A stretch of 64,000 bases of DNA from Corticibacter populi (GTDB taxonomy: Bacteria > Pseudomonadota > Gammaproteobacteria > Burkholderiales > Burkholderiaceae_C). Shown in pieces: positions 58,532-63,499 of the stretch. The first letter of the stretch is position 1; each line of letters opens with the position of its first letter. The notes beneath the pieces are model-generated. The model saw only the letters and a program-made list of their open reading frames with translations, made no database searches and was not told the DNA's origin. The DNA lies in NCBI RefSeq assembly GCF_004217315.1, contig NZ_SGWR01000005.1, positions 124,001 to 188,000 on the forward strand. The letters are read 5' to 3'. A program made the position numbers and the translations under genes.

Positions 58532-58580
58532 TGTTTGTAGGTATGGCCAGGATGCCCGCAGGGCTGTTCGGCAGGTTTTC

Positions 58581-58849
58581 AGAACCTGTTCACGATCTTT
58601 TCATGGGCCACGTTGCCCCGGCAGGCGATGCGATGCAAGGCGCAAACCGCAGTCGGGTCGGTGACCCGGCGAGGATTTGTCACACCGCAGCGCGCGCCTG
58701 CCGGGACAACCCGAAGGGCGGGAGGTCAAAAATGCACCGGGCGGCGTTGCCCGCCTTGCCCAGACGGCCAGTCTGGGCGGCGACGGGCGTCTTGCCCACT
58801 GCATTTTTGACCTTCCGCGTGACCCATGAAAAGATCGTAAACAGGTTCT
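58581..58849 (+). repeat. Inverted-repeat-ended element, copy B
   Basis: A 269-bp element from AGAACCTGTT to AACAGGTTCT. The terminal inverted repeats are about 33 bp with two mismatches (agaacctgttcacgatctttt... on the left). About 95% identical to copy C over the shared 233 bp (11 differences counted by eye, all transitions); it carries 36 bp more, between two CTTGCCC repeats. No coding potential, no clear target duplication. It separates the prp promoter region from the YjiK-like gene. Confidence 0.88.
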
Positions 58850-58973
58850 TAGTCACATTGCCCGCCTAGAATCCTTGCCGCGACAGGATCGGCGTGTCCT
58901 GGAATGCCGGAGGACTGGCATTCCACAAACAGGCGCAGTCAAGGCGACACAACGGCATGGAAGAGGAATTCAC

Positions 58974-59990
58974 ATGAGTGACGGTATGGCCGCAGCCCCT
59001 GCAGGGCTGCCCGCAACTGCGCCGCAGCGTGGCTGGCGCCAGCGTTTGCTGCGGAGGGTATGGCAGACGGTCAAGCTGTTGCTCGGGCTGGTGGTGGTGA
59101 GTGCGGTGCTGTTCGTGGCGATTCGCTACTACCATGCGCACAACCGGCTGGAGCGCTGGTGGTTTGGGCATGACGAGCACATGCAGCAGGTCTGGGCATC
59201 CGGCGATGCCGGGCCGATCGACTCTTTGTCATTGCACCGCTATGCGTTCGATTTCAAGACCCGCATCGATGGCGTGCGCGACAACTTTTCCGGCCTAGCC
59301 TACATGCCCGAACATGGCCAGTTGCTGGGCATCCTCAACCGGCCTGCCGATCTGCTGCGGCTCACGCGCGAGGGGGAACTGGTCAGCCGCCACCGCATCC
59401 ATGGCATGTCGGATCTGGAGGATCTGGTGTACCTGGGCGCAGGCAAGGTCGTCGCCATTCAGGAAGGCCGCAACACCCTGGTGATGTTCGATCTGCCCGC
59501 GCCCGACCAAGCCGAGGTTCCCGAAGAGGCGGTGCGGCGCTGGAAGCTCAGCTTCCATGACCAGAACAACCGCGGCTATGAAGGGCTGGCCTATGACGCC
59601 ACCAGCGACAGCCTCTACATTGCCAAGGAAAAGAGTCCGGTGGCGCTTTACCGCATCCGCCAGTTCAGCACGCTGCCGCAGGGACAGACGCCGGCGCTCG
59701 AGGATGTCAGCCACCTGCTGGCCAAGGTGCCGTTTCTGACCGACCTCTCGGCCATTGCCTTTCGCGCGGACACCGGCAACCTGCTGCTGCTGAGCGACGA
59801 ATCGCAAAGCCTGGTCGAGATCGATGCCCAGGGCCGCCTGCTCGGGGTGCGCAGCCTCATGCCCGAGCGCTGGTGGGATGCGCTGCCCATGCCCCAGCCT
59901 GAGGGCCTGGCGCTGGATGCCGATGGACACATTTACGTGGCCAGCGAGCCCAATGCCTTTTACCGGTACCGTCCCGGCGCTCCGTTCTGA
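58974..59990 (+). CDS. YjiK-like (SdiA-regulated family) membrane-anchored beta-propeller protein
   Basis: A 338-residue protein with an N-terminal membrane anchor (about 28-50: TVKLLLGLVVVSAVLFVAIRY) and a periplasmic SdiA-regulated/YjiK-type propeller: FSGLAYMPEHGQLLGILNRP, MSDLEDLVYLGAGKVVAIQEG, GYEGLAYDATSDSLYIAKE, LSAIAFRADTGNLLLLSDES and PEGLALDADGHIYVASEPN. GAGGAA stands 5 bases before the ATG at 58974. The biochemical role of the family is unknown; calcium-binding and phytase-like relatives exist. It lies just right of element copy B and 238 bp before the roadblock operon, same strand. Confidence 0.85.
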   Translation: MSDGMAAAPAGLPATAPQRGWRQRLLRRVWQTVKLLLGLVVVSAVLFVAIRYYHAHNRLERWWFGHDEHMQQVWASGDAGPIDSLSLHRYAFDFKTRIDGVRDNFSGLAYMPEHGQLLGILNRPADLLRLTREGELVSRHRIHGMSDLEDLVYLGAGKVVAIQEGRNTLVMFDLPAPDQAEVPEEAVRRWKLSFHDQNNRGYEGLAYDATSDSLYIAKEKSPVALYRIRQFSTLPQGQTPALEDVSHLLAKVPFLTDLSAIAFRADTGNLLLLSDESQSLVEIDAQGRLLGVRSLMPERWWDALPMPQPEGLALDADGHIYVASEPNAFYRYRPGAPF

Positions 59991-60228: not shown

Positions 60229-60591
60229 ATGCGTATTGACATTCTTGAAAGCACCTTGAAGGAGCTCAACGGCTCGACGGCCGATATCGAGGCCTCCGCA
60301 CTGATCTCCATCGACGGCTTGCTGGTGGCCTCGGCCATGCCGCAGGGCATGGATGAGGACCGCATTGGCGCCATGTCGGCGGCCATCCTGTCGATGGGCG
60401 AGCGCGCGGCGCGCGAGCTCGCACGCGGCGCACTCGAGCGCGTGCTGATCCAGGGCAGCAACGGCGTCATCATCATGACCTCCGCCGGCGAAGAGGCGGT
60501 GCTGACCGTCACCGCCAAGGCCAACGCCAAGCTGGGCCTGTTGTTCCTCGACATCAAGCGGGCCGCGCAAACCCTGGCCAGCCAGATCTGA
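60229..60591 (+). CDS. Roadblock/LC7 domain protein
   Basis: A 120-residue single-domain protein of the roadblock/LC7 (MglB-like) superfamily: IEASALISIDGLLVASAMPQ, then RIGAMSAAILSMGERAARELARG and VLIQGSNGVIIMTSAGEEAVL, ANAKLGLLFLDIKRAAQTL. Such domains dimerise and act as scaffolds or regulators of small Ras-like GTPases; no GTPase gene is nearby. The ATG at 60229 lies 21 bp after a leader inverted repeat; ribosome site weak. First of five closely spaced genes (27 bp to the PAS gene). Confidence 0.88.
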   Translation: MRIDILESTLKELNGSTADIEASALISIDGLLVASAMPQGMDEDRIGAMSAAILSMGERAARELARGALERVLIQGSNGVIIMTSAGEEAVLTVTAKANAKLGLLFLDIKRAAQTLASQI

Positions 60592-60618
60592 GATCGAAAG
60601 AGCGGAGGAAGAAGCACC

Positions 60619-61113
60619 ATGGGATTGCCGGACATGCAACAGCCCGAGGGGGAGAGCCAGGGCAAGCGGCTGACCTATTTCGATGGAACGTCCCGCCAGG
60701 TCTACTGGACCGAGGTGGAGACGCCGTTTCCGGAAGGACAACTGATCGTCTCGCGCACCGATCTGCAGGGTGTCATCACCCACGCCAATGACGCCTTCGT
60801 GCTGATGAGCGGCTATGCGCGCGAGGATCTGCTGGGGGCGCCGCACTACATCCTGCGCCATCCGGACATGCCGGCCAAGGCCTTCAAGAGCCTGTGGGAC
60901 GATGCCTTTGCCAAGAAGAAATGGCATGGGTATGTGAAGAACCTGCGCAAGGATGGCGGCTTCTACTGGGTTTATGCCACGGTGGTGCCCAATGTGCGCC
61001 ATGGCGAGGTGGTCGGCTACACCTCGGTGCGGCGCAAACCCTCGCGCACCCGCATCGAGGAAGTCGTGCCGCTTTACCGTGACTGGCTGGCTGAGGAAGG
61101 GCAGGCCCAATGA
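60619..61113 (+). CDS. Stand-alone Aer-like PAS sensor domain protein
   Basis: A 164-residue protein that is essentially one PAS domain of the aerotaxis-receptor type: LIVSRTDLQGVITHANDAFV, GYAREDLLGAPHYILRHPDM, KKWHGYVKNLRKDGGFYWV and ATVVPN. In Aer this domain binds FAD and senses redox state. Here there is no HAMP, methyl-accepting, kinase or GGDEF part, so the signal must pass to partner proteins, probably those of this operon. A good site (GGAGGAAG) precedes the ATG. It overlaps the next gene by ATGA, so they are translationally coupled. Confidence 0.88.
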   Translation: MGLPDMQQPEGESQGKRLTYFDGTSRQVYWTEVETPFPEGQLIVSRTDLQGVITHANDAFVLMSGYAREDLLGAPHYILRHPDMPAKAFKSLWDDAFAKKKWHGYVKNLRKDGGFYWVYATVVPNVRHGEVVGYTSVRRKPSRTRIEEVVPLYRDWLAEEGQAQ

Positions 61114-61859
61114 CTCTCAATTTCCTGGTCGCCCCCGACTTTCCGCCGCAGAACTTCGCCGGCTGGCACCTCTTCAACACCGTGCTGCAAAGGCGTGCGG
61201 GCATGCAGCTGCATCTGGTCATGCCGCAGGATGCCGTCGAGCAGGCCGCGCTCCTGGACAAGGAGACGGTCGATGTGCTTTACGCCAACCCCTTCGACGC
61301 CGCCGAGCTGATCCGCGACAAAGGCTACATCCCGTTCGCGCGGCCGGTCAACCGTTCCAACGAGATGGTGATCGCCGTGCCGGCCAGCTCCGTCATCAAC
61401 CGGGTCGAGGACCTGCGTCCGGGCTGCCGGATCGCGCTGACGGCCAACCATGACGTCAAGTTGATCGGCCTGCGCCTGCTGGAACCCGCCGATCTGGCCG
61501 AGGCCGATGTGCAATGGGTGCTGGCCGACAGTTACCAGGCGGCCGCCAGGCAGGTCATCAAGGGGCAGGTCGATGCCGGCTTCTTCCTGGCCTCGGCCTT
61601 CCATTCGCTCTCGCGGCTGACGCTCAGCCAGCTCAGGCCGCTGGTCGAGAGTTCCCTCAAGGACATCTCGCACGTGCTGATTGCGCACCCGCGCGTGCAG
61701 GCCGACCTGCCGGTGATCCGCACCGCCATGCTGGGCATCGGCTCGCAGCCTGGCGATGCCGACGTGCTCGAGGCCATGGGGTTGGGGGAGGGCCTTGAGC
61801 CGATGGACCAGGAGGACGCCGAGTTCATGATCGACCTGATGGACACCTTGCTGGACTGA
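61110..61859 (+). CDS. PhnD-like substrate-binding protein without signal peptide
   Basis: A 249-residue protein of the phosphate/phosphonate-binding (PhnD-like, type II periplasmic binding) family: VDVLYANPFDAAELIRDKGY, PFARPVNRSNEMVIAV, VEDLRPGCRIALTANHDVK and GQVDAGFFLASAFHSL. It starts directly with the first beta strand (MTLNFLVAPDFPPQN), so no signal peptide is present and the protein should be cytoplasmic, unlike ABC-transporter binding proteins; no transporter genes follow. It probably works as a ligand sensor. Coupled to the PAS gene by a four-base overlap. Confidence 0.85.
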   Translation: MTLNFLVAPDFPPQNFAGWHLFNTVLQRRAGMQLHLVMPQDAVEQAALLDKETVDVLYANPFDAAELIRDKGYIPFARPVNRSNEMVIAVPASSVINRVEDLRPGCRIALTANHDVKLIGLRLLEPADLAEADVQWVLADSYQAAARQVIKGQVDAGFFLASAFHSLSRLTLSQLRPLVESSLKDISHVLIAHPRVQADLPVIRTAMLGIGSQPGDADVLEAMGLGEGLEPMDQEDAEFMIDLMDTLLD

Positions 61860-61931
61860 CGCCCGCGATGGACAGTCACAGCCACGACCGCACCGCCGGT
61901 GCCAGCAGGCCCGGCCCGAGAGGGGTTGACC

Positions 61932-62567
61932 ATGCCTGATGCCTTGCCATCCGAAGCCCTGGGCTGGCTGGCGCGACAGCGCATGCGTGCACTGGCGCGC
62001 CAGTTGCGCGTGCGCCCGGATGATGCGCAGCTCCACCTGGAACGTCTGCAGGCGGCCATGGACCTGCCGGGCAGCGATCCGTTGCAGGGCTGCCTGGCCG
62101 ACCTGTTCCATGCCGTCACGGCGAGCCGTGGTCAGGATTTGCGCCAGCTGGCCAGCGAGCTGGCGCAGGCGCGTTTGCCGCGGCACGTCTCCAGTGTGTT
62201 CCAGCAACTGCGCCAGAGTGGCCAGATGATCGGGCCGATCAGTCTGGTGGCCAACCGCTGGAGCGTCATGGTGCAGCCCTCGGCGGCGGCGCCGGCGCGC
62301 AGTCGCCGCGCCAGCGGCGACGACTCGCGCCGTCTGGCCGAACAGGTGGTGCGCGCAATGACCGGTGGCGATGCCGCCGATGCCAGTGCCGCCGTCGAGC
62401 TGCTGGAATACGAATTCCTGGCACACTGCAGCGCCTGCCAGGACAAGCTGGCCTTCATGCTGGCACGCCGCGAATTGCTGCGCCAGGGCCTGGAGCTCAC
62501 ACCGGCCTGGCTGGATGTGGCCGCGAAGCTCGAAGGCGATGCCGCCGGCGCGGCCAGCGCCTCCTGA
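61932..62567 (+). CDS. Unrecognised protein of the roadblock/PAS operon
   Basis: A 211-residue protein with no family I recognise. It is mostly helical and rich in Ala, Leu, Arg and Gln, with LARQRMRALARQLRVRPDDA near the N-terminus, a Ser/Ala/Arg-rich hinge near the middle (PSAAAPARSRRASGDD) and a late CxxC in AHCSACQDKLAF. No signal peptide or membrane segment. The start at 61932 (MPDALPSEALGW) is supported by GAGGGG about 8 bases upstream. It lies 72 bp after the PhnD-like gene and 26 bp before the next, so it is part of the same unit. Confidence 0.75.
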   Translation: MPDALPSEALGWLARQRMRALARQLRVRPDDAQLHLERLQAAMDLPGSDPLQGCLADLFHAVTASRGQDLRQLASELAQARLPRHVSSVFQQLRQSGQMIGPISLVANRWSVMVQPSAAAPARSRRASGDDSRRLAEQVVRAMTGGDAADASAAVELLEYEFLAHCSACQDKLAFMLARRELLRQGLELTPAWLDVAAKLEGDAAGAASAS

Positions 62568-62593
62568 CCCGTACATCCCAAGCCCCTTCTCCT

Positions 62594-63247
62594 ATGTCAT
62601 CGATCCCACCTTCATCGTCACGAGCCCGGCCGTCGAACGGCCTGTTCGACAGCTGGCTGACCCTCACGCCCCAAGGTGTCCTGCAGGCCTTCGGCTCGGC
62701 CGAGCCAAATGAGCTGCAGCTGGCCCTGCAATCGCTGTTGCGCAAGGAACTGGCCGTGAGCAAGAGCGAGTGGAGCATTTCGACGCGCCACAATGCCTAC
62801 CTCGAACAGGCGCGCGATCAGCAATGGGTGCAGGTGCTGTCGGCGCCGGTCAACGGCCCGGATACGCGCCTGTCGGACTTCATCCGCCACGTCATCGCGC
62901 CGCTCTCGGGCGAGCGCCGCGCGGTGCTCGCTTCCGAGAGCGGTTTCTGCCTTGATCGCGTGGGCGTTGAGCAGGACGAGGCCGAGGCGCTCAGTGCCGC
63001 CGCTGCCGACTTCTCCGAATATGCGCGGCGTCAGGCGCGTCGTGGCTGGCAGGGCGCGAGCCGCTATGTGTCCTTCTTCGACGATCCGCAGCTGCTGCTG
63101 CCGAGCTGGTCGTTCGTGCCGATCTGGGTCGATGGCGCCGGCTACTGGATCATCATCGGTGACGAGCCCCTGCTCAACAACCTGGCACTGGTCGAGTTGG
63201 TCTGGGGCATCTGCCTGGCCGGCAAGCGCTTCCTGCCGGATTTCTGA
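62594..63247 (+). CDS. Possible second roadblock-like protein, function unknown
   Basis: A 217-residue cytoplasmic protein without signal or membrane segments. The stretch RAVLASESGFCLDRVGVEQD followed by an Ala-rich helix (SAAAADFSEYARRQARRG) and a strand-rich end (SFVPIWVDGAGYWIIIGDEP, LNNLALVELVWGI) resembles a roadblock/LC7 fold, but similarity is weak and the call is a guess from pattern. Its TGA stop shares its last base with element copy C, so the element sits immediately after the operon. Confidence 0.65.
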   Translation: MSSIPPSSSRARPSNGLFDSWLTLTPQGVLQAFGSAEPNELQLALQSLLRKELAVSKSEWSISTRHNAYLEQARDQQWVQVLSAPVNGPDTRLSDFIRHVIAPLSGERRAVLASESGFCLDRVGVEQDEAEALSAAAADFSEYARRQARRGWQGASRYVSFFDDPQLLLPSWSFVPIWVDGAGYWIIIGDEPLLNNLALVELVWGICLAGKRFLPDF

Positions 63248-63479
63248 GAACCTGTTTACGATCTTTTCATGGGTCACGTTGTCCCGACAGGCGATGCGAT
63301 GCAAGGCGCAAACCGCAGTCGGGCCGGTGGCCCGGCGAGGATTTGTCACGTCGCAGCGCGCGCCTGCCGGGACAACCCGAAGGGCGGGAGGTCAAAAACG
63401 CACCGAGCGGCGTTGCCCGCCTTGCCCACTGCATTTTTGACCTTCCGCGTGACCCATGAAAAGATCGCAAACAGGTTCT
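63247..63479 (+). repeat. Inverted-repeat-ended element, copy C
   Basis: A 233-bp element, same orientation as copy B, with AGAACCTGTT and AACAGGTTCT ends and about 33-bp terminal inverted repeats. It lacks the 36 bp present in copy B between CTTGCCC repeats. The first base is the last base of the stop codon of the preceding gene, as in copy A. A short fragment resembling the end (GTGAACAGGTCCTGA) recurs at about 63540. Confidence 0.88.
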
Positions 63480-63499
63480 GAGCACATCGATGCGCATGG

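Follow-up and report, generated by a model that had tools for sequence, protein, structure and literature searches.

What do bacterial roadblock proteins do in an operon that encodes no small GTPase? The question is raised by five genes of Corticibacter populi at positions 60229-63247 of the 64,000-nucleotide stretch analysed here (the window; positions 124,001 to 188,000 of contig NZ_SGWR01000005.1), which lies on contig C5 of a 4.2 Mb genome. Our preferred explanation, with a probability of roughly 0.6, is that the operon represents what remains of a Group 3 MglA system after its GTPase was shed, namely the half that holds the sensors and the roadblock proteins. The related full form has seven genes, encoding P4, a receiver/winged-helix protein, MglA, P5, rb, Aer-PAS and PhnD, and occurs in two gene orders. 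The window's operon consists of five co-directional genes on the plus strand, separated by gaps of 27, -4, 72 and 26 bases:

60229..60591, + strand: rb, a roadblock/LC7 protein (MglB1-like) of 120 amino acids, assigned from PF03259 and PDB profile matches.
60619..61113, + strand: pas, a free-standing Aer-type PAS protein of 164 amino acids, assigned from PF08447/PF00989 and Aer PDB matches.
61110..61859, + strand: phnD-like, a cytosolic binding protein of PhnD/PtxB fold, 249 amino acids, assigned from PF12974, with no room for a signal peptide.
61932..62567, + strand: p4, an all-helical protein of 211 amino acids whose fold has no known match, characterized from an AlphaFold model and conservation.
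62568..62593, + strand: the 26-base P4-P5 junction, the site of the GTPase and receiver protein in relatives, from locus comparison.
62594..63247, + strand: p5, an N-terminal helical part followed by a second roadblock domain (MglB2-like), 217 amino acids, assigned from AlphaFold and Foldseek.

To place this operon among its relatives, we used a PhnD-family scan of named genomes that yielded 154 relatives; the counts use the best 80 of the 154, this named set alone, and several of these loci are the same contigs as other loci of the analysis. By record titles and tree labels, the 80 belong mainly to Comamonadaceae/Burkholderiaceae, Lysobacteraceae (Xanthomonadaceae) and Moraxellaceae. The order rb-PAS-PhnD-P4-P5 is intact in 74, as expected by an earlier prediction made from the letters of the window (the original prediction); contig ends cut a further five (L081, L083, L092, L093 and L102), and one, a second copy in Lampropedia hyalina (L108), is without P4 and P5. 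That species carries a complete operon (L107) besides the second rb-PAS-PhnD triad (L108, 5996-7747), and neither P4 nor P5 was found in the 4 kb from the triad to the contig end.

An MglA-family GTPase gene follows P4 in 25 of the 80 loci and precedes P5 wherever P5 is not cut off, adjoining a gene for a receiver-like/winged-helix-like protein; the same arrangement is also present in L025-L029. The receiver-like/winged-helix-like protein stands alone at the junction in 21 loci, 20 of them complete, and 32 complete loci have neither gene, like the window. The remaining two are L102, cut after P4, and L108. In total, 52 of the 80 carry a complete operon that has its frames open and no GTPase. 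Between 60229 and 63247 of the window there is no MglA-family GTPase, as the original prediction stated, P4 and P5 being just 26 bases apart, and the receiver-like/winged-helix-like protein is absent as well. Because an MglA-type GTPase lies inside the same operon in 25 of 80 loci, we place the operon with the Group 3 MglA systems.

The association extends to a second gene order. Elsewhere in the class, two loci (L171 and L172) are arranged as P4, winged helix, GTPase, P5, rb, PAS and PhnD. Four more share this permuted order with no receiver/winged-helix gene called by the profiles (L174, L175, L179 and L183), three are permuted without PAS and PhnD (L173, L177 and L178) and three permuted-type loci are without GTPase (L184, L176 and L182); other GTPase-less loci hold rb, P4 and P5 (L165-L167) or P4 and P5 (L168-L170). 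Within the window's own order, five genomes of one family (L231-L235) encode a winged helix, GTPase, P5 and rb, the winged-helix matches being weak (E 5e-3 to 2e-6), and L236, L237, L240, L241, L243 and L244 add PAS, PhnD or P4. A locus outside the 80 (L022, genome G059) has P4, the receiver-like protein and P5, and the first three genes are not in the 17 kb examined. P5 was found in 15 of 100 relatives (genus 10/10, the own genome included; other family 4/50; other order 1/40) and, in the larger samples, in 24 of the 349 genomes taken from the order and 37 of the 369 taken from the class, again counting the own genome. The GTPase profile matched 68 of the 369 class genomes. With the own genome left out, the class sample has 41 P5 places: 29 directly follow a GTPase gene, 6 are in genomes with a GTPase elsewhere and 6 are in genomes without a match.

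A P-loop and a DAR motif are present in all 12 GTPases of rb-first operons that were aligned. The receiver/winged-helix protein of the relatives has no Pfam domain; its median length is 477 amino acids where the GTPase is present vs 291 where it is not. An amphipathic C-terminal tail is found on this protein in 21 of 25 GTPase loci and in none of the 21 GTPase-less ones; the protein is short and lacks it in 20 of 20 GTPase-less loci with a visible end, the 21st (L083) being cut by a contig end. The exceptions among GTPase loci are L079, L105, L113 and L128, of which L113 has a similar tail missed by the pattern, and L105 and L128 end differently. This distribution suggests that the C-terminal part of the receiver protein is what the GTPase acts on.

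Group 3 MglA systems were described bioinformatically in 2014 as combining MglA and one or two MglB proteins with a conserved protein whose receiver-like N-terminus and winged-helix-like C-terminus, both predicted folds, are joined by a variable linker (PMC4316618). They occur nearly all in beta/gamma-Proteobacteria, among others in Neisseria, Stenotrophomonas and Xanthomonas, and Groups 2 and 3 carry the DAR motif (PMC4316618, Wuichet & Sogaard-Andersen 2014). The window's relatives have the receiver/winged-helix protein, an MglA with DAR, and the roadblock proteins rb and P5, adjacent or in one operon. The window itself has the roadblock pair, rb by Pfam and P5 by predicted fold, but neither MglA nor the receiver protein; it has in addition Aer-PAS, a cytosolic PhnD protein and P4, which are not mentioned in the available part of PMC4316618. 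Loss of a GTPase from such an operon has a precedent in the conservons, in which mglA loss has left orphan mglB genes (PMC4316618). The actinobacterial conservons CvnA-D resemble the present relatives in joining a sensor, an MglB-like roadblock protein and a small GTPase in one operon, and P5 weakly matches CvnB5 (E 0.022); they differ in that the window has no histidine kinase (no CvnA kinase-like sensor among its five genes) and in belonging to another phylum. The P5 profile ranked CvnB5 behind a Bartonella effector (E 0.016), a match that we take for chance.

In the MglA/MglB/RomR/RomX/RomY polarity module of Myxococcus xanthus, too, a Ras-like GTPase is under the control of a roadblock protein and a response regulator takes part (PMC9481161, PMC4316618), whereas the window has no GTPase in cis and, in place of the Frz chemosensory system, soluble proteins of PAS and PhnD fold as candidate sensors. 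Another possible parallel is mglB-3 of Snodgrassella, an orphan roadblock gene that does not lie beside mglA in its Group 3 genome. Its mutants form motile flares on soft agar, which the authors interpret as a change in the motility that depends on type IV pili (PMC11112851). A search of the open-licence literature, which is not proof of absence elsewhere, found no paper on the combination of roadblock, PAS, PhnD and GTPase or on near variants of it.

The reading frames and the plus strand of all five genes are as the original prediction had them, the ATGA overlap between the PAS and PhnD-like genes is real, and its assignments of the first three products are borne out. The rb protein matches Robl_LC7 (PF03259) at 61.4 bits (cut-off 23) and, in the PDB, 7f8m at E 4e-25, with MglB structures lower in the list. 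The lone PAS protein matches PAS_3 (PF08447) at 56.6 bits (cut-off 25.6) as well as PF00989, and its best PDB match is the Escherichia coli Aer PAS structure 8dik (E 5.4e-35), followed by Aer 31cj (E 1e-34). The match spans the PAS domain and its flanks and includes an identical RHPDMP stretch; the R-H-P-D part of it, which contributes to FAD binding in Aer, is conserved. Unlike the Aer receptor, the window's PAS domain is the whole protein, without membrane, HAMP or signalling domain. The PhnD-like protein belongs to Phosphonate-bd (PF12974; 138 bits, cut-off 27), and its profile matches PtxB (5o2j, E 1e-4) and ArrX (E 1.5e-3) in the PDB. Its stop-to-stop reading frame (61095-61859) opens only five codons before the ATG, which leaves no room for a signal peptide, as had been proposed. 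It shares a family with the binding proteins of PhnD/PtxB ABC transporters but has no export signal, and whereas those proteins have permease and ATPase neighbours, no permease, transport ATPase or kinase is found among the five genes by reading frames and Pfam, in agreement with the prediction on permease and kinase.

The last two proteins were harder to place. P4, which the original prediction had called an unrecognised helical protein, has no Pfam or NCBIfam family above cut-off; its AlphaFold model is confidently all-helical (pLDDT 92.7) and finds no convincing fold match in the PDB (best E 1.2). Fourteen positions are invariant in 63 of 63 aligned homologues, including H35, R38, D57, R109, D130, H165, C166 and D171, and the nearest relative is only 51% identical. 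Remote relatives of P4 occur in 20 of 369 class genomes (own genome included) as partial profile matches. These cover mostly the first half, and the C-terminal part with H165 and C166 is therefore known from rb-first operons. P5 gives in Pfam only a sub-threshold match to Robl_LC7 (E 0.088). Its model (pLDDT 88.8), searched against the PDB with Foldseek, returns roadblock/MglB structures at the top, led by 3kye (E 4e-4), with 3t12 and 6hjm weaker; with three PDB matches at E ≤ 0.001, the assignment of a roadblock fold to the second half is good, not overwhelming. The tentative roadblock label that P5 had received thus stands by predicted fold. On the question whether structure prediction would relate the last two proteins to signalling, P5 is so related and P4 shows no known relation.

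To trace the history of the GTPase, we built a tree of 82 operons (the window, the 74 complete loci and 7 permuted ones) from four concatenated proteins by a quick method, with SH-aLRT as the only support. The nearest operons to that of the window are from Lampropedia puyangensis, L. aestuarii and L. cohaerens, and 16 Psychrobacter operons form one GTPase-less clade. GTPase presence changes at least six times on this tree, and the starred branches alone force six. The GTPase is found in both gene orders, which suggests that it is ancestral. If so, it would have been lost in a group of Lampropedia, xanthomonads and Rhodoferax-Polaromonas, in two Lysobacteraceae, in Psychrobacter, in L106 and in L184; L079, inside the first of these groups, has a GTPase that would have been kept or regained. 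Seven Lysobacteraceae (Xanthomonadaceae) operons branch, at a starred branch, beside five Lampropedia-type ones within the Comamonadaceae/Burkholderiales rows, a placement that suggests horizontal transfer of the GTPase-less form. L106, whose record is named Streptomyces cinereus JCM 3040, nests among Moraxella operons; its genome is 2.8 Mb, and the record is probably mislabelled or contaminated.

The GTPase-less operons are maintained. Their genes are under purifying selection: four GTPase-less pairs whose dS is unsaturated have dN/dS values of 0 to 0.28 over the five genes, and two GTPase-carrying pairs have values of 0 to 0.34 (between the window and L052, three of the five genes show saturated dS). 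Of the 118 columns of rb, 69 reach at least 90% conservation in each form of the operon (22 with the GTPase and 53 without); shifts between the two forms are few and mostly conservative, and no lost interface is visible. The conserved surface of rb is therefore not tied to the presence of a GTPase in the operon. The sensing part has been kept by many bacteria after the probable loss of the GTPase, which suggests a function of its own.

A GTPase could nevertheless be supplied from elsewhere in the genome. We searched 50 genomes with the GTPase profile at E ≤ 1e-3: 47 with complete GTPase-less operons, that of the cut locus L102 and 2 that carry the GTPase in the operon. In 37 of the 47 there was no match to the profile, although other Ras-like kinds are not excluded by this result. 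Going by record titles, the 47 include 25 isolates, and 17 of these 25 gave no match; with five further genomes added, 37 of 52 with a GTPase-less operon are without a match. The L102 genome has a GTPase elsewhere than in the operon. A search of 7 of the 37 genomes with Pfam ATP_bind_1 found none (0/7); this family detects the GTPase of the own genome at only 30.2 bits (cut-off 27) and is therefore a weak detector. That GTPase, the one MglA-type protein that a profile and Pfam search of the C. populi genome returned, as the original prediction had suggested looking for, lies on contig C2 at about 590.8-591.3 kb, some 2 kb from a roadblock gene. It belongs to a separate MglA-type locus at about 588.4-591.9 kb (L032, 10395-13862), comprising genes for a roadblock protein, a small protein without Pfam match, an ABC-phosphatase fusion, the GTPase and another small protein without Pfam match. 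The fusion combines an ABC ATPase domain with one that resembles a dual-specificity phosphatase, and it looks unusual beside an MglA-type GTPase.

Several observations weigh against the view that the operon is the remaining half of a Group 3 system that has lost its GTPase and works without it. Nine of the 47 genomes have a GTPase elsewhere and a tenth, that of L106, has no more than a fragment of 24 residues containing a stop; the 47 include 22 metagenome-assembled or uncultured genomes, which may be incomplete; and the own genome and those of L052, L053, L054 and L056 all hold a GTPase elsewhere; because the window's genome holds one of MglA type, independence from a GTPase is not established for this strain. 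The root of the tree is uncertain, so that 'loss' rather than 'gain' is a matter of interpretation, and the similar dN/dS of the two forms means that selection does not separate them. The GTPase-less rows that share a tailless receiver protein are closely related, so loss of the tail counts as one to three events, and in L079 the receiver protein is short and has no tail even though a GTPase is present. The GTPase of L031, beside P5, rb and PhnD, has DGR instead of DAR. Finally, equating the receiver protein of the relatives with that described in 2014 goes by position and architecture.

Three other explanations deserve weight. That rb and P5 of the window regulate the C2 GTPase in trans is unlikely on present evidence, yet it is the strongest of the three: that GTPase has a roadblock gene nearby, the same-genus genomes with GTPase-less operons (G001, G002, G003 and G006) each hold at least one GTPase elsewhere, and the rb columns are nearly alike with and without an operon GTPase. 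Set against this are the 37 of 47 genomes without a profile match and the C2 protein itself, which is 42-48% identical to an operon GTPase and sits in a different gene set. Even less probable is a stand-alone signalling system unrelated to any GTPase, which was in essence what the original prediction had proposed. The five-gene form does occur in Comamonadaceae, Lysobacteraceae and Moraxellaceae, often with no GTPase-profile match in the genome, but the same genes surround an MglA-type GTPase in many genomes and in two gene orders. As an account of ancestry the stand-alone system is thus refuted, unless the GTPase was inserted later; for present function it survives.

It is very improbable that the five genes are decaying, functionless bystanders left behind by loss of the GTPase. 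The missing GTPase and receiver genes, the L108 triad that keeps only the first three genes, and the low identity of P4 to its nearest relative would fit such a relic. However, the purifying selection on all five genes in the four GTPase-less pairs largely refutes it, and the 52 complete operons with open frames and the single GTPase-less Psychrobacter clade also speak against it.

How would the half-system work? A soluble, roadblock-centred sensing complex is plausible. In such a complex, rb and P5 would form the roadblock core, Aer-PAS would supply the redox state through FAD, the PhnD-like protein would supply a small, perhaps anionic, cytosolic ligand, and P4 might be a further input or a coupling part. 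This retains much of the original prediction, in which a soluble redox- and small-molecule-sensing complex reports through a roadblock scaffold: the conserved operon, the cytosolic PhnD-like protein, the Aer-like PAS and the roadblock fold of P5 all favour it, and only the claim of a system separate by ancestry falls, given the GTPase in 25 of 80 loci. In the full systems the complex would govern MglA's GTPase cycle, and MglA in turn may influence cell polarity or type IV pili by way of the receiver/winged-helix protein. In the window's lineage, with no GTPase in cis, the complex would most likely act directly on a cellular target, and less likely regulate the remaining MglA-type GTPase on contig C2. 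Further still, it is possible, though we hold it only tentatively, that rb and P5 constitute a GTPase-independent receptor complex with redox (Aer PAS) and ligand (cytosolic binding-protein fold) inputs, freed from the GTPase several times and with a direct effect on a target, for example the machinery of type IV pili.

What MglA/MglB do in Myxococcus (PMC9481161) and the flares of the Snodgrassella mglB-3 mutants (PMC11112851) suggest a link to pili, and co-occurrence with PilM weakly points the same way. Matches to PilM_2 are almost saturated in the class sample (343 of 369 at E ≤ 1e-3), and the window's genome has PilM. At E < 1e-50, PilM_2 is found in 35 of 37 P5-positive genomes vs 236 of 332 others (Fisher p 0.001), a weak association from a tally by eye, uncorrected for kinship.

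Among the 25 largest clusters of flanking genes, most do not extend beyond a single genus or a handful of close relatives; outside Psychrobacter, the most widespread is the receiver-like protein of permuted operons, itself part of the system. Upstream of the window's operon and on the same strand, a gene at 58974-59990 encodes an SdiA-regulated family protein (PF06977, 211 bits); it is not beside the operon in the relatives searched and is therefore not counted as part of the system. A promoter scan found none, a scan that does not cover other promoter types, and a terminator scan found one site, under the shuffled mean of 1.8. One further feature abuts the operon:

63244..63482, no strand: a short repeat element with 35-base terminal inverted repeats, which starts at the P5 stop codon and lies outside the system.

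MITE-like copies of this repeat at 58576-58852 and 63242-63482 flank the SdiA-regulated gene and the operon together. The element is about 235-270 bases long with terminal inverted repeats of 31-35 bases, and copies spanning at least 232 of its 235 bases stand at 19 or more places in the own genome (40 of 152 candidates scored).

Roadblock proteins have so far been read as regulators of small GTPases, and most of what is understood about the bacterial MglB-type proteins has come by way of their GTPase. An operon that repeatedly occurs without a GTPase, with its roadblock pair and putative sensors under selection, makes GTPase-independent roadblock signalling a testable proposition. Redox state and a small ligand also become candidate inputs for Group 3 MglA systems, which this analysis met with in records of Comamonadaceae and Moraxellaceae.

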